DNA of 27,568 nt from a virus. Under the pieces are notes generated by a model. The model saw only the letters and a program-made list of their open reading frames with translations, had not been told where the DNA came from and did no database searches. Both the position numbers and the translations under genes were made by a program. The stretch is taken from positions 1-27,568 of the IMG/VR virus record IMGVR_UViG_3300050821_000031; one strand, written 5' to 3'. This document shows, piece after piece, positions 3-5,642 of the stretch. Positions within the stretch are counted from its first letter, which is position 1. Each line of letters opens with the position of its first letter.

Positions 3-482
3 GAGATACTGGGATGTACACTTGGGGAAGCGGATACCGCTCTCCAACGCATTATGGATAGATACCAGGGTTTCACTTATCTCAAGACTGTTGTCATATC
101 ATCCGACGCAAGACGTGGCTGGTTTCAAGGTCTGGACGGTCGAGCTGTTAGGATACCTGGCGATACCCCCAGTAGTAAAAGACACCTATGTATGTCTGGT
201 TATCTGCAGAATGGTGAAGCAGTCATCATGAAGATGGCTACGCTACAGTGGATAGATTTCCTTAAAGAACAAGAGGCTAAGTTAGTTAACTTTGTCCATG
301 ATGAATGGCAGGTTGAATGTCCTAATGATATGGCAATAGCATTGGGACTAGCCGAAGTAATGGCAGATAGTCTGCGTAAGGTAGGTGAAGAATTGAAATT
401 GAAATGCCCACTAGCAGGATCATATTGGAATGATGATCTCAAGGACTATACTATAGCTACTAACTGGAGTAAGACACATTGA
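3..482 (+). CDS. DNA polymerase, family A (T7 gp5-like), C-terminal part
   Basis: This is the C-terminal end of a replicative family A DNA polymerase; the gene begins upstream of the window and is open from base 3. The reading shows the palm-domain features of T7 gp5: a segment RRGWFQGLDGR aligned with the RRWIKGLDGR block of T7, then the helix HLCMSGYLQNGEAVIMKM, then motif C as VHDEWQVE. The aspartate of that motif (codon 300-302) is the metal-binding catalytic residue known in the family. The end, CPLAGSYWNDDLKDY, matches the usual position of the family C-terminus. It copies the phage genome with the ssDNA-binding protein encoded just downstream. The stop overlaps a TTG start of the next ORF. 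The family assignment is firm; the exonuclease and thumb domains lie outside the window. Confidence 0.93.
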   Translation, partial: EILGCTLGEADTALQRIMDRYQGFTYLKTVVISSDARRGWFQGLDGRAVRIPGDTPSSKRHLCMSGYLQNGEAVIMKMATLQWIDFLKEQEAKLVNFVHDEWQVECPNDMAIALGLAEVMADSLRKVGEELKLKCPLAGSYWNDDLKDYTIATNWSKTH

Positions 483-628
483 ATAACGAAATGATTGATG
501 ATCTTATTGAATACTTAAACGATGAACAACGTGCTAAGGATACTCATAATTCATTTATACTACTTCCCAAAGAACGGGAAGAAGTAATTGATGCGCTGAC
601 GTTCTACAAGGAGATGAATATACTCTAA
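479..628 (+). CDS. Small hypothetical protein (49 aa, TTG start)
   Basis: A 49-codon ORF fills the gap between the polymerase and the ssDNA-binding protein. I chose the TTG at 479 because GGAG at 466-469 lies nine bases upstream and the start overlaps the polymerase stop (TTGA), a typical coupled arrangement. The first ATG, at 491, has no visible ribosome binding site and would give 45 residues. The protein is acidic at its start (MIDDLIEYLNDEQ) and probably helical, with no membrane segment or known motif. Its stop overlaps the next ATG by one base (TAATG). I do not recognise a family. Tight packing on both sides is the main support that it is translated. Confidence 0.6.
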   Translation: MNNEMIDDLIEYLNDEQRAKDTHNSFILLPKEREEVIDALTFYKEMNIL

Positions 629-1122
629 TGGTTAAATATGGTAAGACAGAAATAGTATACATACAGGGTAAAGCTTCTTGGTTCAGAGCTAAGCAACCTA
701 ATCAATGGAACAAGTACTCTGTGCAGATACATCCCAATGCTGAAGGGTTGGAGAAAATACGTGAACTCCAGTCCAGAGGTTTAAAGAATACAATCAAGAA
801 GGATGACGATGGGTACTTCGTTAACTTTACTAGACCAGTCTCAAAAGAATACAAGACCGGTAAGATACAAACTTTTGCACCGCCTACAGTCACTGATAAA
901 GACGGTAACATCTTCGAAGGACAAGTAGGTAATGGTTCTGATGTTACTCTAAAGCTAGAAGTCTATGAACATGCTACTCCTGCCGGTGGTAGGGCTGTGG
1001 CTGCAAGGTGGGCTTCAGCTAGGATAGATACCTTAGTACCATTTGAACTAGAGACCAGTGGCTTCCCTAGTGAGATAGCTGCTGCTCAAGGACTAGCTGA
1101 ACAACCAGCACAGTTGTTCTAA
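628..1122 (+). CDS. Probable ssDNA-binding protein (T7 gp2.5-type role)
   Basis: A 164-residue soluble protein coded directly after the DNA polymerase. The N-terminal two thirds look like an OB-fold replication protein: beta-rich stretches with aromatics (GKASWFRAKQPNQWNKYSVQIHP) and a later strand pair (GSDVTLKLEVYEH). Such proteins protect exposed single strands and stimulate the polymerase. The tail is unlike T7 gp2.5: it is not strongly acidic but runs AAAQGLAEQPAQLF and ends in phenylalanine, a residue that in gp2.5 is important for partner contacts. AAGGAG at 608-613 is 14 bases before the ATG, a long spacing, but the start is fixed by the TAATG overlap with the preceding ORF. The role rests on neighbourhood and general sequence character rather than a diagnostic motif. 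Confidence 0.65.
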   Translation: MVKYGKTEIVYIQGKASWFRAKQPNQWNKYSVQIHPNAEGLEKIRELQSRGLKNTIKKDDDGYFVNFTRPVSKEYKTGKIQTFAPPTVTDKDGNIFEGQVGNGSDVTLKLEVYEHATPAGGRAVAARWASARIDTLVPFELETSGFPSEIAAAQGLAEQPAQLF

Positions 1123-1441
1123 TCAATTCACAGCATGAACCCTCCCCGCTTCAGGAAAGCTTACTAAGGAGTAAGCAACCCCACCCTCCTGCCGGATTCA
1201 GGTACCGGGCTGTGTCCTCAGGTATAGCCTGAGAGGAAATGAACCAAGTATGTCCGACTAAGAAGATGCCAGGCTAAGTATCCTGATGAGGTGACTCGAT
1301 TCTTCTGCTAGCAACTCCCCGAGTGTGAGACCGTGTGTTCACGGACCGGTAGGGGACACGCGAAATAATCTTCCAATGGATCCGACATACAACCATACCT
1401 GTGTCTCATAAGCACAAGGGTGGTAGATAGCAAACAGACGT

Positions 1442-1493
1442 CGCGCATGCTAGGGCTATGGTGCATAGTGCTATAACCTCTGTAGAGGGCGCG
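1442..1493 (+). other. RNA three-way junction within the candidate ncRNA
   Basis: CGCGC at 1442-1446 can pair with GCGCG at 1489-1493 and encloses two perfect hairpins: CTATG/CATAG (1456-1460 with 1464-1468, loop GTG) and CCTC/GAGG (1477-1480 with 1485-1488, loop TGTA). The helices do not conflict with one another and together form a compact three-way junction. This is direct base-pairing evidence; conservation has not been tested. Confidence 0.5.
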
Positions 1494-1568
1494 CATGAGG
1501 GTAAAGGTCTTGCCTTAAATGGCTAATGGTCTGAAGCGATAACACAAAGTAGCAGAAAGGACTAAGCT

Positions 1569-1602
1569 GAAGGGTTCGATTCCCTTCCTCCGTGGGACGG
1601 AG
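1569..1602 (+). other. tRNA T-arm-like hairpin stacked on a second hairpin
   Basis: GAAGGG-TTCGATT-CCCTTC (1569-1587) has the exact 7-base loop and the GTTC/GAT/C flanks of a tRNA T-arm. It is followed with no gap by CTCCGT-GGG-ACGGAG (1588-1602), so the 3' strand that should enter a tRNA acceptor stem is instead paired locally. A weak alternative acceptor partner, ATGAGGG at 1495-1501, matches six of seven positions with wobbles, but no D-arm or anticodon arm of normal size fits between. I therefore call it T-arm-like and not a tRNA gene. Confidence 0.55.
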
Positions 1603-1687
1603 ACTGGCGGCAATGGTTGTACTACCACGTGGTATGTGGATACACCTAGTCTGGTAATGCTTCAGTAACCCCGTGAAACGGGTAGAT

Positions 1688-1704
1688 GTAGGTTCGAATC
1701 CTGC
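1688..1704 (+). other. Second tRNA T-arm-like hairpin
   Basis: GTAGG-TTCGAAT-CCTGC is a canonical T-arm sequence (one G-T pair in the stem). It is preceded by a CCCGT-GAA-ACGGG hairpin (1670-1682) placed where a type II tRNA would carry its variable arm. The expected acceptor partner of the following CTGTGGG (1705-1711) is not found within 100 bases upstream, and no CCA is encoded. It is either a decayed tRNA or, as I prefer, a T-loop module of a larger RNA. Confidence 0.5.
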
Positions 1705-2245
1705 CTGTGGGTCGTAATGTAGTAGGACCATGATAAAAGCGAGACCCGACGAACTATAGCGTTAAGGGTAGCAGATACTTCTCAACCTCTGTGACCCCAC
1801 TGATTACACTGTTCGAGCAAGGCATACTCTGAACCTGCCCCAGACGACCCTGTGTATCTGGATCGCGCAGAAGCAGCATTACAAACTCGATGACTGTACA
1901 CTGGATACCGTTAACCTCCAGGCCTACGGGCAGTATGTACGACGCGGGAACGCCTCCGGAATGTAATGTGGAGCAAGGATTGTTAATCCTTTGGCTCAAG
2001 ATAGACTACCTGCATTGGTAGGGGTAGTGCCGTACGTAAAGATCACCGGTCAGGCACACCAGGCAGCGCTGTGACCAGACGTACCGCTGAAGTGAATAAC
2101 CAAGCATACGTTGGATGGGCAATGACATGGTCGACGAGACCGCCAGTCGCAGATGAAATCCCTCTAGCTGATGATGGAGAACAACGTGAGACACATCCGT
2201 TCCTCTCAGCAGAAACCAAGACCTCCCTAATAATAACAGGGCACA

Positions 2246-2286
2246 GGGGTAGGCCATGTTTGAGCCTACCCCACAAGGCCAAGGAG
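2246..2286 (+). promoter_or_regulatory. 9-bp hairpin followed by a ribosome binding site
   Basis: GGGGTAGGC (2246-2254) pairs perfectly with GCCTACCCC (2264-2272) around a 9-base loop. No U-tract follows, so it is not a simple rho-independent terminator. Nine bases downstream is AAGGAG (2281-2286), eight bases ahead of the ATG at 2295. The hairpin may be the 3' boundary of the candidate RNA, an RNase processing site, or a 5' stabiliser of the exonuclease mRNA. The ribosome binding site also fixes the start of the next gene. Confidence 0.5.
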
Positions 2287-2294
2287 TACGTGTC

Positions 2295-2582
2295 ATGAAG
2301 AAGATTATGCTGGTCGACCCTGATGACTTCTTCACTGGTCGACGTCGAGATACAGTACCAATGGATGATCTGAAGATATACAAGAAGTGGAAGAAGTTCT
2401 TGAAGAAGGAAGCAGAAGAAGCTAACAAGAAGAAAGACCCTGTCCAGAGCTGGTGGGGTAAGAGGTCTGTTGCTGAGAGGACAATCATTATCTTCTTTGT
2501 CTTCCCACCAGTAGGCATTATCTACGTCTTCGGTCTGCTTCAGATAGCTAAGGTAATGGCTAGGTCTGTGGGCATACAGTGA
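2295..2582 (+). CDS. Small membrane protein, 95 aa
   Basis: The protein has a charged N-terminal half, very rich in lysine from about residue 27 to 50 (KKWKKFLKKEAEEANKKK), and one hydrophobic segment near the C-terminus (IIIFFVFPPVGIIYVFGLLQ), so it is probably a single-span inner-membrane protein with a basic, likely cytoplasmic, coiled region. I chose the ATG at 2295 because AAGGAG lies eight bases upstream; an earlier in-frame ATG at 2256 falls in the loop of the hairpin and has no such site. The stop overlaps the GTG start of the exonuclease (GTGA), so the two are translationally coupled. I do not recognise the family. A role at the membrane during host takeover or DNA handling is only a guess. 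Confidence 0.7.
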   Translation: MKKIMLVDPDDFFTGRRRDTVPMDDLKIYKKWKKFLKKEAEEANKKKDPVQSWWGKRSVAERTIIIFFVFPPVGIIYVFGLLQIAKVMARSVGIQ

Positions 2583-3442
2583 AGATACAAACCTTAATAC
2601 AGGACATCTACCGATTGGTAGGCAACGAAGAGAACTGGCTGACAAGTGACATCGCTACTAAATTCACATCTGAACTCACTATTAAACTCCAAGGATCCTT
2701 CAGTCCGCAACAAAGGACTGGACTACGTCTTAGCGGTCTGGGAACACAGTGCCCGTGTCAGCTGTGGCACTCGGTACATACCCCATTGGCTGCGGAACCT
2801 CTCCCTCCCTGGGCAAGGATCAAATACACCTACGGACACATACTTGAATGTCTTGTAATCGCCATGGCTAAGGCAGCCGGGCATGATGTAACAGGAGAGC
2901 AAGATGCTGTATCTGTTGATGGGGTCGTCGGCCATCGCGATTGTGTCATCGACGGGAACGTCGTTGATGTTAAGTCTGCTAGCAGCCGTGCTTTCCAAAA
3001 GTTCAAAGACGGTTCAATCGCATCCGATGATGGCTTCGGTTATCTTGATCAACTTGATGGGTATATTGTGGGCTCCTTGGGTGATCCACTGGTAACCAAT
3101 AAGACATCTGGTTATCTATTAGCAATCGACAAACAATTAGGACATATGTGTTTATATGAGCATACTGCGCGCCCGGAAAGTATTAGAGAAAGAATTCGAA
3201 ATCATAGAGATGTCATCGCTCTTGATAGCCCTCCGCAATGCACTTGTGAAGAAGTTCCCGATGGAAAGTCTGGAAACTATAGACTGGGCATTAGAGGCAG
3301 CTATAACCCGTTTAAGTACCAGTGTCGTCCACAGCTTCGAGCCTTCAGATATTCTGATGGGGTCAGATACCTCACAAGAGTTGTCCGAAGACCAGAAGTC
3401 ACAGAGCTAGACAAGTATGGTAGAGTAGTGTATAATAACTGA
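2579..3442 (+). CDS. PD-(D/E)XK exonuclease, RecB/Cas4-like
   Basis: A 287-residue nuclease with the ordered signatures of the RecB/Cas4 fold: LSGLGTQCPCQLWH at residues 51-64 (the usual 'S..CP...W' entry motif), a helix with GHILE (E90), GHRDCVID (D121), VVDVKSAS containing the D130-x-K132 metal site, and Y-x-x-Q158-xxx-Y162 (YLDQLDGY). These are the known metal-binding and structural residues of the family, so a metal-dependent DNA exonuclease is likely, acting in recombination or host DNA breakdown as gp6 does in T7. Cysteines at 58, 60, 221, 223 and 249 recall the N-terminal-one plus C-terminal-three layout of iron-sulphur Cas4/AddB nucleases, though the spacing differs. It starts with GTG coupled to the previous stop, without a clear ribosome binding site, and ends in a TGATG overlap with endonuclease I. 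Confidence 0.87.
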   Translation: MKIQTLIQDIYRLVGNEENWLTSDIATKFTSELTIKLQGSFSPQQRTGLRLSGLGTQCPCQLWHSVHTPLAAEPLPPWARIKYTYGHILECLVIAMAKAAGHDVTGEQDAVSVDGVVGHRDCVIDGNVVDVKSASSRAFQKFKDGSIASDDGFGYLDQLDGYIVGSLGDPLVTNKTSGYLLAIDKQLGHMCLYEHTARPESIRERIRNHRDVIALDSPPQCTCEEVPDGKSGNYRLGIRGSYNPFKYQCRPQLRAFRYSDGVRYLTRVVRRPEVTELDKYGRVVYNN

Positions 3443-3774
3443 TGCGCAATAAATTCGAGGCACGTATATACGCTAGCCTCAAGAAGAAGAAGATTAAGTT
3501 TAAGTATGAAGGTGAGAAAGTACCTTACCTAATCAGTGGACACTACATACCTGATTTCATTATCACTACCCCACACGGTAAGATCTATGTTGAAACCAAA
3601 GGACACTTTAGACCCGAAGCTAAGCGCAAGATGGCTGCTGTTAAAAAGCTTAATCCCAAGCTTGACATCAGACTACTATTTTACTCACATAGCAAGTCCG
3701 CCGTTAAATGGTGTGTGAAGCATGGCTTCCCATATGCAATAGGAGATATACCTGATGAGTGGTTGGAAGAATGA
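3442..3774 (+). CDS. Endonuclease I, Holliday junction resolvase (T7 gp3-like)
   Basis: This 110-residue protein matches T7 endonuclease I along its length: KKKIKFKYEGEKVPYLISGHYIPDF followed by KIYVETKGHF and a C-terminal HGFPYAIGDIPDEWLEE, which parallels the T7 end (HGIKFADKLIPAEWIKE). The catalytic set is present: E6, D38, E51 and K53, equivalent to T7 E20, D55, E65 and K67. The enzyme cleaves branched DNA as a domain-swapped dimer, resolves replication and recombination intermediates before packaging, and helps degrade host DNA. It is shorter than T7 gp3 (149 residues), lacking most of the T7 N-terminal extension and basic tail. The start overlaps the exonuclease stop by one base. The 3' end overlaps the next small gene. 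Confidence 0.95.
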   Translation: MRNKFEARIYASLKKKKIKFKYEGEKVPYLISGHYIPDFIITTPHGKIYVETKGHFRPEAKRKMAAVKKLNPKLDIRLLFYSHSKSAVKWCVKHGFPYAIGDIPDEWLEE

Positions 3775-3856
3775 TCTGTTCTGGTTTATAGCTGGAGCAA
3801 TTGTTATGGGTGCAATAGATCTAGGATTAGGATTGTATTACTTCCCTGCCCAATGA
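3755..3856 (+). CDS. 33-aa single-span membrane microprotein
   Basis: Starting inside the end of the endonuclease gene in another frame, this ORF encodes MSGWKND followed by a hydrophobic span of about 22 residues (FWFIAGAIVMGAIDLGLGLYYF) and a short tail ending in PAQ. An ideal AGGAG (3741-3745) lies nine bases before the ATG, and the stop overlaps the next start (ATGA), so both ends are tied into the operon. The protein should insert in the inner membrane. An aspartate and several glycines within the span suggest helix packing. Function is unknown; holin-like or host-membrane-modulating roles are possible but unproven. Confidence 0.72.
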   Translation: MSGWKNDLFWFIAGAIVMGAIDLGLGLYYFPAQ

Positions 3857-3999
3857 ACTATGATACCTTACTCAACGTATATACCTTGGAAGAACTGCTT
3901 GAACTGAATGATAAGACTACTGAAGAATGCTTAGAGTTCCTAGTTGAAGAGAAGTATATTAAACTACCAACAATTAAACCTTTAGACTTCGATGATTAA
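3853..3999 (+). CDS. Small acidic hypothetical protein, 48 aa
   Basis: The ORF begins at an ATG overlapping the stop of the membrane microprotein (ATGA) and ends overlapping the next gene. The product is acidic and mostly helical in character (YTLEELLELNDKTTEECLEFLVEEKYIKLP), resembling a small helical hairpin or winged-helix-like fragment with no catalytic motif. No membrane segment is present. Translation is probably by coupling, because no separate strong ribosome binding site is visible. I do not recognise a named family. Confidence 0.65.
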   Translation: MNYDTLLNVYTLEELLELNDKTTEECLEFLVEEKYIKLPTIKPLDFDD

Positions 4000-4201
4000 A
4001 CATCCACACTCTAGGGCTGAACGTCTTAGACTTAAACACTTAAAGGAATCCTTTGACAATAAATCCAAACGATCAGCCATCCGTCACAGGAAGCAGGAGA
4101 TCGAGGCGAAGGAACTCGAAGATGAGCTTAGGATCACGGTATCTGGCTCGCAAGAGGAAGCAGTCATCCCAGCCAATCAAGTCAGAGATATCCCTGGCTA
4201 A
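3992..4201 (+). CDS. Small basic hypothetical protein, 69 aa
   Basis: The first 45 residues are dense in lysine, arginine and glutamate (RAERLRLKHLKESFDNKSKRSAIRHRK) and likely form one charged helix; the rest is less ordered. The ATG sits inside the end of the previous ORF (stop at 3997-3999). The last 80 bases are also read by the next gene in another frame, so the C-terminal third carries two messages. A nucleic-acid-binding role would suit the charge pattern but is inference only. Confidence 0.6.
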   Translation: MIKHPHSRAERLRLKHLKESFDNKSKRSAIRHRKQEIEAKELEDELRITVSGSQEEAVIPANQVRDIPG

Positions 4202-4358
4202 TGTCAGGGACGGTTTGATGCCGATGCTGTATACTCTGAACGTAATCAAGCCTCACGATGAAGTCTTGGAGATTGACTTCGATTGGCACAACATCAAGGA
4301 CGAGATATGTCCCGTAACAATATATGTGAAAGGAGCTAAGACAAAAGAAGGTGGCTAG
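4122..4358 (+). CDS. Hypothetical protein, 78 aa
   Basis: The start is taken at ATG 4122 because AAGGA at 4109-4113 is eight bases upstream. A TTG at 4053 with AAAGGA before it would add 23 residues and cannot be excluded. The N-terminus is basic (RYLARKRKQ); the C-terminal part (MLYTLNVIKPHDEVLEIDFDWHNIKDEICPVTIYVKG) looks like a small mixed alpha/beta domain. No family is recognised. The gene overlaps its neighbours on both sides. Confidence 0.6.
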   Translation: MSLGSRYLARKRKQSSQPIKSEISLANVRDGLMPMLYTLNVIKPHDEVLEIDFDWHNIKDEICPVTIYVKGAKTKEGG

Positions 4359-4599
4359 AAATTACAGGAAAGAGACTGCCTATGAGGAAGCTCCTACGCA
4401 AGTCAAACGTCGAGAAGCTCGGAATAGAGCCCGACGCAAAGCACTCAAGGCAGGACGAGTACACAAAGGAGACAAGAAAGAACTTGACCACCTTGGATAC
4501 CATAGGACTGGTAGCCTTGACCGTGTTCCCACTCGGGTTGTTTCTGAGCATGCTAATGTCATCAGACAACCCCCGACTAAACGGAAACGAAAGCGATGA
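4351..4599 (+). CDS. HNH-like small basic phage protein, 82 aa
   Basis: The sequence pattern MARNYRKE, then RREARNRARRKALKAGRVHKGD, then LDH, then RVVSEHANV matches a widespread small phage protein type that carries a degenerate HNH-like motif (usually 'GDGKDVDH...N...NLRVVS'). Here the first histidine is in LDH and the asparagine-rich middle is reduced, so nuclease activity is doubtful. It is strongly basic and ends KRKRKR, consistent with DNA or RNA binding. The start is GTG, overlapping the previous stop (GTGGCTAG); an AGGAG at 4331-4335 is rather far away. Most of the gene is overlapped by another ORF in a different frame. The homology is from pattern memory, not a search. Confidence 0.68.
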   Translation: MARNYRKETAYEEAPTQVKRREARNRARRKALKAGRVHKGDKKELDHLGYHRTGSLDRVPTRVVSEHANVIRQPPTKRKRKR

Positions 4600-4606
4600 T
4601 GATTGA
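4382..4606 (+). CDS. Nested single-span membrane protein ORF, 74 aa
   Basis: This ORF lies almost wholly within the HNH-like gene, shifted one frame. Its product has a charged N-terminal 38 residues, one clear membrane span (LDTIGLVALTVFPLGLFLSMLM) and an acidic tail (NESDDD). Being open for 74 codons while encoding a well-formed hydrophobic span in an antigenic-looking frame argues that it is real. The upstream AGGAAAGAG (about 4367-4375) is a weak but possible binding site for the ATG at 4382. Nested membrane genes are known in phage (Rz/Rz1 is the classic case), but I see no lipobox here. Confidence 0.45.
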   Translation: MRKLLRKSNVEKLGIEPDAKHSRQDEYTKETRKNLTTLDTIGLVALTVFPLGLFLSMLMSSDNPRLNGNESDDD

Positions 4607-4709
4607 TGACGATGTCTTCCTAGCTTATCAACATAGGAGTAATCAATATCAAGCACTACTACAACAGATACAAGACATACTAGATTTCCATAACAAGGAA
4701 ATGAAATAA
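4596..4709 (+). CDS. Short hypothetical ORF, 37 aa
   Basis: The ORF starts at ATG 4596, overlapping the stop of the HNH-like gene (ATGA) and the end of the nested ORF. It encodes an acidic start (MMIDDD) and a glutamine-rich helix (NQYQALLQQIQDILDFH). There is no strong ribosome binding site, so translation would depend on coupling. The gap after it, 4710-4749, holds a small GGGC/GCCC hairpin (4720-4732) and the binding site of the next gene. Function is unknown. Confidence 0.45.
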   Translation: MMIDDDVFLAYQHRSNQYQALLQQIQDILDFHNKEMK

Positions 4710-4749
4710 ATAATACTTAGGGCATACAGCCCCAAAGAAGGAAAGAACC

Positions 4750-4896
4750 ATGAATGACATGGCTATCGAAACTGTGGGCCTGGATCACTTCATCCTCGGC
4801 CTCGACGAAGAAGGTAACGAAGTCAAGATCAAAGTTGACCCGACGGGTGAACTCGTCCAGGAAGTCGACGATAAAGATGACGCCGACGAGGACTGA
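4750..4896 (+). CDS. Small acidic protein with biased codon use, 48 aa
   Basis: The ATG is preceded by AAGGAAAG (4737-4744), a good ribosome binding site. The product starts MNDMAIETVGLDHFILGLDEEG and ends in a very acidic tail (EVDDKDDADED). Codons are mostly C- or G-ending (GGC, CTC, GAC, ATC), unlike the AT-rich genes just upstream, a pattern often seen with high expression. Two stem-loops, the second a rho-independent terminator, follow directly. The acidic surface could mimic DNA, as several phage anti-host proteins do, but nothing beyond charge supports that. No family is recognised. Confidence 0.65.
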   Translation: MNDMAIETVGLDHFILGLDEEGNEVKIKVDPTGELVQEVDDKDDADED

Positions 4897-4911
4897 TCTT
4901 CCATTCTAACT

Positions 4912-4944
4912 CCTAGAGGCCGGCCCCCGCCTTGGGCCTCTAGG
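4912..4944 (+). other. 10-bp perfect stem-loop
   Basis: CCTAGAGGCC (4912-4921) pairs with GGCCTCTAGG (4935-4944) around a 13-base GC-rich loop. It has no U-tract and lies just before a true terminator, so it could assist termination or protect the 3' end of the preceding message. Confidence 0.6.
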
Positions 4945-4950
4945 TAAACT

Positions 4951-4988
4951 GACCCCGGTACCGCTAACGCAGGCCGGGGTCTCTTTTT
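4951..4988 (+). terminator. Rho-independent terminator
   Basis: GACCCCGG (4951-4958) pairs with CCGGGGTC (4974-4981) across a 15-base loop and is followed by TCTTTTT. This is a standard intrinsic terminator for the small acidic gene upstream, possibly the end of the whole plus-strand message. Confidence 0.85.
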
Positions 4989-5138
4989 GGATATACTGTT
5001 ATGATGGACTGGACTAGCTATAACGAACACATGAAATACTATGAACCTGGTTATGCATGTAGAAATAGGGAGGAAAGGAAAAAGATATATCAAGAGTACT
5101 TAGCTCATACGAGCAAACAAGAAGAAGGGAATAATCCC

Positions 5139-5642
5139 ATGTATATCGAACACGGTTATAAGACAGCCTGCACCAGTGCTCATCTTCAGCCACAGGCTAA
5201 TATGGTAGTCCAGGTTGCTACTGAGACTAAGCGTGACACTGCTGAGGAGCAGCGTACCTACCTCAAATGTCGTATCGACAATATCCGGTATGAGAAGCAC
5301 CGAGAGATTGGCAAACAGTTCTTCCGTGATGAACCTGAAGGTCCTAAGACTATCAAGGAGCTGAAGGAACGTCTGAAGAAGGGTTTGTACACCATCATCG
5401 AGCCCAAACACTACAACGAGGACGACGAGGATGAGGAAGAGATCAGCATCTACTGGCGTGATTACTTCTCTTGGCGTACTGCTGATACGCAGTTCGACAA
5501 GGAAGGTTACAAGGCTGCGGTAGAAGAACTGGACAAGTTCGTTCAGGACCTCGTCGACCAGATCAGGATCCTTGATCCCAAGGATGGTCTGAAGTTGTTG
5601 GAAGACCTGAAGAAGTGGAAGCCATCTAAGTCTAAGAAATAA
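5139..5642 (+). CDS. Hypothetical charged protein, 167 aa (possible longer form from 5001)
   Basis: The ATG at 5139 has AAGAAGGGA (5122-5130) eight bases upstream, and from there codon use turns GC-rich with many C-ending codons. The same frame is open back to ATG 5001, giving 213 residues, but that start has no binding site, lies only 12 bases after a terminator, and the extra 46 codons are AT-rich with many AGA, AGG and ATA codons. The protein has charged helical stretches (RTYLKCRIDNIRYEKHREIGKQF), an acidic run (NEDDEDEEE), an aromatic patch (SIYWRDYFSWR) and a basic end (KKWKPSKSKK). It is probably soluble and non-enzymatic. No family is recognised. The bidirectional terminator lies just downstream. 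Confidence 0.72.
   Translation: MYIEHGYKTACTSAHLQPQANMVVQVATETKRDTAEEQRTYLKCRIDNIRYEKHREIGKQFFRDEPEGPKTIKELKERLKKGLYTIIEPKHYNEDDEDEEEISIYWRDYFSWRTADTQFDKEGYKAAVEELDKFVQDLVDQIRILDPKDGLKLLEDLKKWKPSKSKK

Follow-up and report, generated by a model that had tools for sequence, protein, structure and literature searches.

The window (the whole stretch of DNA that was analysed, 27,568 nucleotides) represents 27.6 kb of a podovirus-like genome, IMG/VR record IMGVR_UViG_3300050821_000031, and the RNA locus considered here sits in the early/replication operon of uncultured Zobellviridae-like podoviruses from soil. The features of the locus are listed in Table 1. The product of the gene preceding the RNA had no match in Pfam or PHROG and is probably an ssDNA-binding protein, judging by its position after DNA polymerase A; "SSB" is used below as a working label taken from gene position and not from a profile. 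The GC content of the RNA stretch is 0.50-0.52, compared with 0.37-0.47 in the upstream genes, in line with the preliminary description, which had called the stretch richer in GC than its flanking genes. Within the same plus-strand operon, approximately 1.5 kb past the Cas4-like gene, a hairpin GACCCCGG...CCGGGGTC followed by TTTTT (4945-4990) has the look of an intrinsic terminator.

Table 1. Positions of genes, RNA domains and smaller elements at the locus
Feature	Position	Strand	Remarks
Family A DNA polymerase, end	3-482		
Conserved 164-aa gene ("SSB"), upstream of RNA	628-1122	+	Kept in ~48 IMG/VR contigs
Gene-free stretch, ~1.13 kb	1123-2255		Between SSB gene and small downstream gene
Structured RNA core, ~980 nt in window	1129-2112	+	Consensus 167-196 bp, 84-110 compensatory pairs
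5' domain	1129-1213	+	Closed by 1129-1134/1209-1213; helices 1152-1156/1187-1191, 1192-1197/1202-1208
Central multibranch domain	1499-1747	+	Closed by long-range 1499-1502/1744-1747, 1526-1532/1725-1731, 1536-1540/1711-1715
T-arm 1, GAAGGG-TTCGATT-CCCTTC	1569-1587	+	Helix 20: 100% paired, 5 of 6 pairs with both-side changes
Capped mini-acceptor hairpin, CTCCGT-GGG-ACGGAG	1588-1602	+	Helix 21
D-arm-like ACTGGCGGCAATGG	1603-1616	+	After mini-acceptor
Hairpin with GTGAAA/TGCAA-type loop	1666-1685	+	Followed by short linker and T-arm 2; helices 22, 23
T-arm 2	1688-1704	+	Helices 22, 23
Most conserved block, GATAAAAGCGAGACC	1732-1746	+	Invariant among close relatives
Shine-Dalgarno GGAG of micro-ORF	2176-2179	+	Direct reading
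Micro-ORF, 14 aa, (M)RHIRSSQQKPRPP-stop, GTG start	2186-2230	+	Within stretch without consensus pairs (2113-2245)
Stable hairpin GGGGTAGGCCATGTTTGAGCCTACCCC	2246-2272	+	15 nt past micro-ORF stop; helix 36: 93% paired, 6 pairs with both-side changes
Downstream gene, 95 aa	2295-2582	+	RBS AAGGAG 2281-2286; lysine-rich middle, one C-terminal hydrophobic segment
Cas4-like exonuclease, 3' anchor of locus	2579-3442	+	PHROG 1990, E 1.3e-21
Endonuclease I	3442-3774		3' of Cas4-like gene

Using the SSB and Cas4 proteins and their alignments, homologues were gathered from IMG/VR in about 80 related contigs, of which the complete ones measure ~50-52 kb. In nearly all of them, SSB and Cas4 are spaced 1.4-4.2 kb apart, and homologous loci lie in the same gene slot. 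The distance from the SSB stop to the micro-ORF has a median of 1,617 bases (range 1,063-3,707), and some of the longest SSB-Cas4 gaps hold extra genes. A metallophosphoesterase-like gene (~170-240 aa) lies between the micro-ORF and Cas4 in contigs L075, L078, L081, L092, L117, and L157, a conserved gene of ~175-188 aa lies between SSB and the RNA, in the 5' part of the gap, in L011, L021, L073, and L078, and another pair of small genes is found in the gap of L097, L099, L107, and L111. Iterated nhmmer searches recovered the window RNA at full or near-full length in ~10 phages. Four further phages matched over its 3' half, and ~20 over shorter significant blocks. Contig L012 (IMGVR_UViG_3300021168_000258, 4061 bp) is 100% identical to window positions 1113-5173; it is apparently another fragment of the same virus and was left out of the counts of independent homologues.

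Among cultured relatives, the insert between SSB and Cas4 is absent from the Roseobacter phages CRP-4, CRP-13, and SIO1, Pelagibacter phage HTVC115P, and Sinorhizobium phage phiM6, and likewise from contig L122. No match to the RNA or to SSB was obtained in the cultured-phage collection, and a profile search of genome contigs with the Cas4 alignment, made for host assignment, returned no match. Contigs L003, L004, and L008 carry a T7-type-promoter-like ACTAATACTTAATTCTACAG ~20 nt 5' of the first RNA helix, which the window does not have. A phage RNA polymerase (PF00940), sought to explain the promoter-like TAATACTTAATTCT at the RNA start of some relatives, gave no match in 12 contigs, and the control was also without a match.

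Conserved structure of the gene-free stretch

The preliminary description had seen no credible gene in this region, and for 1123-2255 this was borne out. The longest stop-free stretch in 1123-2180 is 96 codons, against a mean of 106 in shuffled sequence, the stop-codon density of the gene-free stretch equals that of random sequence, and only 17% of the indels between relatives, compared pairwise, are multiples of three. The wider claim of an ORF-free region (1123-2272) holds across most of its length and is broken near its end by the micro-ORF, which had been overlooked together with the conserved membrane-protein gene that follows it.

The stretch had also been called helix-dense, and a folding energy no better than that of dinucleotide shuffles had been set beforehand as refuting. 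On this measure the claim would fail: compared with dinucleotide shuffles, the single-sequence folding energy of the whole region has a z of -0.68, and 150-nt windows have a mean z of 0.01, so that the helices read from the window alone are no more than chance gives. This single-sequence result is overruled by the comparative evidence from homologues, which show consensus pairs with compensatory changes.

For the consensus, a set of eight or nine close relatives was used. With nine of them, RNAalifold predicted 196 pairs; the paired fraction of cells was 93%, and 110 of the pairs had changes on both sides. When the partners were slid by 1-3 columns, pairing fell to 34-41% and compensatory pairs to 16-28, a control that is favoured by construction, since the consensus was derived from the same phages; more weight rests on the compensatory changes and on the gene controls. 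Column-shuffled alignments yielded 82-115 pairs, of which 6-21 were compensatory, at one third of the energy. Moved onto an independently made alignment, the structure retained 167 pairs, 92.7% pairing, and 84 compensatory pairs, compared with 79.8% and 43.6 in shuffles, and none of 500 shuffles was as high on any of five measures. The mean RNAalifold window z of the plus-strand RNA was -5.3, whereas the three flanking genes gave 0.09, 0.14, and 0.20. An all-pairs covariation test with a tree-based null, which has little power on 15 sequences, recovered four pairs at E<1, and the structure-directed counts were used in its place. In the consensus pairs, G.U cells (122) far exceed A.C cells (22), which identifies the plus strand as the structured one, and as RNA, not DNA.

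The pairing is distributed over distinct domains. In the 5' domain (helices 1-3), 100% of cells are paired and eight pairs show changes on both sides; the central domain encloses both T-arms, and its helices 14, 15, 18, and 19 are paired in 95-100% of cells, with nine pairs changed on both sides. The consensus pairs stop near 2112, 2113-2245 is open, and a single hairpin follows. It is practically certain that a conserved structured RNA exists at this locus, and the consensus structure, the compensatory changes among homologues, and the lack of such a signal in the flanking genes strongly support the preliminary proposal of a large, structured noncoding RNA of a phage.

tRNA-like arms, micro-ORF and downstream gene

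Both T-arm hairpins noted earlier are real, with the hairpins spanning 1571-1587 and 1688-1704. The arrangement at 1569-1616, T-arm, mini-acceptor, and D-arm, follows the permuted tRNA order, with a D-arm less typical than in distant relatives, while 1666-1704 resembles the anticodon arm-variable loop-T-arm half of a tRNA. T-arm, acceptor, and D-arm is the order in a circularly permuted tRNA and also in YrlA. Scanning 82 loci for five-pair hairpins with the loop TTCRANN revealed 111 T-arms on the plus strand and two on the minus strand, with a mean of 1.8 in dinucleotide shuffles. The four Watson-Crick types occur 39/20/35/35 times at stem pair 2 and 34/54/19/20 times at stem pair 3, which amounts to class-wide covariation seen without an alignment. 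A perfect 5-bp T-arm is missing from 17 of the 82 loci, so the mimicry may be non-essential or more diverged.

Two contexts of the T-arms recur. In one, represented by T-arm 2 of the window, the T-arm is preceded by a hairpin whose loop is GTGAAA or TGCAA and by a linker of two to four bases. The other context has a short hairpin with a cap after the T-arm, and then TGGCGAAATTGGTAGACGC, which resembles the D-arm of long-arm tRNAs; it follows 23 of 105 T-arms, against a background of 1.9% at random positions within these RNAs. A more stringent D-loop motif was found 22 times on the plus strand, in 19 cases no more than 60 bases downstream from a T-loop, against one occurrence on the minus strand. 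The permuted module is clear in ~20-25 loci and only approximate in the window itself. ARAGORN detected no tRNA gene or tmRNA fold in the window or any locus, and the acceptor is short and capped, so missed or split tRNA genes were rejected. The suggested association with tRNA is therefore a real link, not in the form of tRNA genes beside a giant RNA, but as arms built into it, and mimicry of the tRNA elbow is very likely a true feature of this RNA class.

Downstream of the structured core, all gaps were scanned for ORFs of 7-60 codons with a Shine-Dalgarno-like leader and a Pro-Pro-stop end. Such a micro-ORF (9-33 aa) was found in 81 of 86 gaps, compared with 2.1 in composition-preserving shuffles and with 1 of 83 control segments of equal length downstream of the gaps; the five gaps without it are four outgroup gaps and one truncated contig. 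The 81 loci include near-identical contigs and represent 72 distinct peptides, and a second or alternative candidate in a few loci means that single assignments may be wrong. Among close relatives, the codon differences are 23 synonymous and nine nonsynonymous, and the end is PRPP-stop. The residue before the prolines is R in 33 and Q in 30 (63 of 81), with little conservation otherwise, and the use of all four Pro codons and of two stop codons indicates that selection acts on amino acids. The final Pro codon is CCT in 67 of the 81, with the penultimate one evenly CCT, CCA, CCC, or CCG, which suggests that a particular codon or tRNA is required in the P site. In Escherichia coli, Pro-Pro at the C terminus halts ribosomes at termination in each context tested, with ssrA tagging and stop-codon cleavage as consequences; the cleavage is suppressed by stable downstream structure (PMC3834316). 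Judging from these sequence patterns, the micro-ORF is almost certainly translated and selected for its Pro-Pro-stop end.

A hairpin of at least 6 bp lies between the micro-ORF and the next gene in 47 of the 61 loci with a suitable spacer, typically starting ~12 bases after the stop. It includes the Shine-Dalgarno of the next gene in only nine of the 61, so that a lid on the downstream ribosome-binding site, as in the model for CutF (PMC9973294), does not hold as a general rule here. An intrinsic terminator was also rejected, as there is no T-run and no terminator-like site on the plus strand. The downstream gene of the window probably starts at 2295 and not at 2256, and its product showed no recognisable family in profile searches. 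A similar protein of 72-133 aa, rich in lysine in its middle part and with a single hydrophobic segment close to the C terminus, comes next in ~71 of the 81 loci; in the remaining ~10, the script chose an inserted gene, e.g., metallophosphoesterase.

Possible modes of action

The RNA, the putative arrest peptide, and the membrane protein rather probably form one functional unit. How the unit might work is proposed tentatively from the arrangement of the genes, from sequence signals, and by analogy: a scaffold RNA that is anchored by the membrane protein and gated by an arrested ribosome is possible, though somewhat short of probable. The tRNA-elbow surfaces of such a scaffold may recruit an elbow-recognising host factor, e.g., the ribosome, PNPase, or tRNA-modifying or processing enzymes. 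A ribosome would arrest at the Pro-Pro stop of the micro-ORF, marking the boundary between RNA and message and controlling or timing the expression of the membrane protein, and the hairpin downstream could shield the mRNA from exonucleases. The basic membrane protein, in turn, would bind the RNA and place it at the membrane, as OapA does for OLE RNA, a parallel that concerns gene order only. It is also conceivable, but unlikely, that a giant tRNA-elbow-mimicking RNA with an obligatory Pro-Pro-stop arrest peptide in cis allows the phage to sense or subvert ribosome rescue in the host; the arrested ribosome would then be the signal, the tRNA-like RNA would compete with or recruit the rescue or decay machinery, and the membrane protein would be the output.

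Another explanation is that the whole RNA is a very long 5' control region of the membrane-protein gene, with no role of its own. The micro-ORF would encode a leader peptide, and its arrest would switch the downstream gene, a mechanism proposed for CutF and seen in TnaC and SecM. The short and fairly constant distances between micro-ORF, hairpin, and gene in most loci are consistent with such a leader, and CutF of Rhodobacter combines a C-terminal proline-rich motif with a stem-loop (PMC9973294). However, tens to a few hundred bases are enough for a leader switch, against the 1.1-3.7 kb seen here, the rarity of hairpins covering the downstream Shine-Dalgarno argues against it, and a leader alone leaves the tRNA-like arms unexplained; we consider this reading rather unlikely. 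If the RNA were instead a free, trans-acting molecule of the GOLLD/ROOL type, forming an RNA-only particle late in infection, the micro-ORF and the membrane protein would be mere neighbours. Its size, ornate conserved structure, and phage origin fit this, and GOLLD and ROOL are known to assemble homo-oligomeric cages (PMC12286853). Yet neither is matched in sequence or structure, the operon is an early/replication one, and mere neighbourhood does not explain a micro-ORF in 81 loci, which makes a particle of this kind improbable.

The elbow modules might also be decoys for SmpB/tmRNA, PNPase, RNase P, or modification enzymes, which they would titrate or recruit locally. Their permuted order is that of YrlA, whose module binds PNPase and is modified by Dus (DusA) and TruB enzymes (PMC8394870), and since a Pro-Pro-stop end is a textbook target of tmRNA (PMC3834316), the RNA half and the peptide half of the locus both relate to ribosome rescue. 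Against a decoy, a complete elbow is present in a minority of loci only, and a TROVE/Rsr gene had no match in 18 phage records, in a search whose control was detected, although a partner could be encoded by the host; we regard a decoy as quite unlikely. The site among replication genes would suit an element that acts at the DNA level through helices in single-stranded DNA, e.g., an origin of replication or a packaging site. The excess of G.U over A.C cells, T-loops of the RNA type, and an ORF led by a Shine-Dalgarno on the same transcript render it very improbable. Minus-strand open frames common to the closest phages are the one hint of a decayed or unrecognised protein gene, to which the indel pattern, the shuffle-like stop-free length, and the compensatory changes leave a negligible probability. 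The anchored scaffold is our preferred explanation. With dozens of natural variants and a natural "empty" state in the cultured marine relatives, the function of the RNA is directly testable.

Relation to known RNA families and systems

Neither the window nor 18 relatives contained an Rfam family at the gathering score, and the GOLLD and ROOL covariance models had no match in 900-2500 at E up to 10. Membership in GOLLD, ROOL, or any other Rfam family was consequently rejected; of the two possibilities raised in the preliminary description, a member or a new class of giant phage RNA, only the latter is supported. The likeness to GOLLD and ROOL lies in being giant phage RNAs with elaborate structure and a tRNA link. 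Neighbouring tRNA genes are frequent in GOLLD and ROOL but not essential, whereas here no tRNA genes are nearby and tRNA-like arms are built in instead.

YrlA, a bacterial Y RNA (RF02553), was the only related module found in Rfam, with the same order of T-arm, capped mini-acceptor, and D-arm. Its model aligns to positions 4658-4725 of contig L098 with all three elements at 29.4 bits, below the cut-off of 69. Weaker matches at E<=1 were obtained in 14 of 26 phage records; however, most of 14 control genomes also match below threshold, probably because neighbouring tRNA genes put a T-arm before a D-arm, and the YrlA E-values are therefore not to be leaned on. YrlA itself is 90-150 nt long with an Rsr-binding stem, whereas here the module lies within an RNA of 1-3.7 kb. 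A permuted (two-piece) tmRNA has a similar order of T-arm, acceptor, and D-loop, and the cyano_tmRNA model gave a weak match at 1570-1618 (14.7 bits, E 0.23, far below the cut-off). The mini-acceptor here is capped by a loop of 3-10 nt, so that there is no free CCA end, and no tag frame exists at that position.

As for the protein-coding parts, OLE RNA and OapA offer a likeness in gene order: a large ornate RNA in tandem with a small transmembrane-protein gene. The ole and oapA genes adjoin in tandem, and OapA is a transmembrane protein that brings the RNA to the membrane (PMC9723947). A tandem single-TM protein is present at our locus, for which no homology to OapA was found, and the OLE covariance model had no Rfam match in the window or 18 relatives. 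OapA is bacterial and of 21 kDa, whereas the protein here is phage-encoded, ~10-12 kDa, and single-TM, with a Pro-Pro-stop micro-ORF in between. Leaders of the CutF, TnaC, and SecM type likewise place a short ORF with a proline end before a hairpin and a regulated gene, and YbeL-PP shares the Pro-Pro-stop end and itself shows that this end arrests termination. In contrast to these, the micro-ORF here (9-33 aa) follows a giant RNA, prefers R/Q-P-P-stop with little else conserved, and precedes a hairpin that seldom covers the downstream ribosome-binding site.

In the literature searched, which was mostly non-subscription and non-bioRxiv, a giant RNA combined with an arrest peptide and a membrane protein is not described, nor does any RNA family match the locus. 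The comparative sequence data support the window RNA as the putative first example of a new class of large noncoding RNAs in phages. Structured RNAs of very large size and without a known partner are seldom found, and each such class has led to new biology. Beyond what GOLLD and ROOL provide, this RNA has three handles: tRNA-like modules that name candidate partners, a putative arrest peptide of a type whose biochemical effect is known, and a neighbouring membrane protein as a possible anchor. Its separate parts, the giant RNA, the Y-RNA-like tRNA mimic, and the proline arrest, are each of known kinds, and permuted tRNA mimicry, known from bacterial Y RNAs, is extended to phages.
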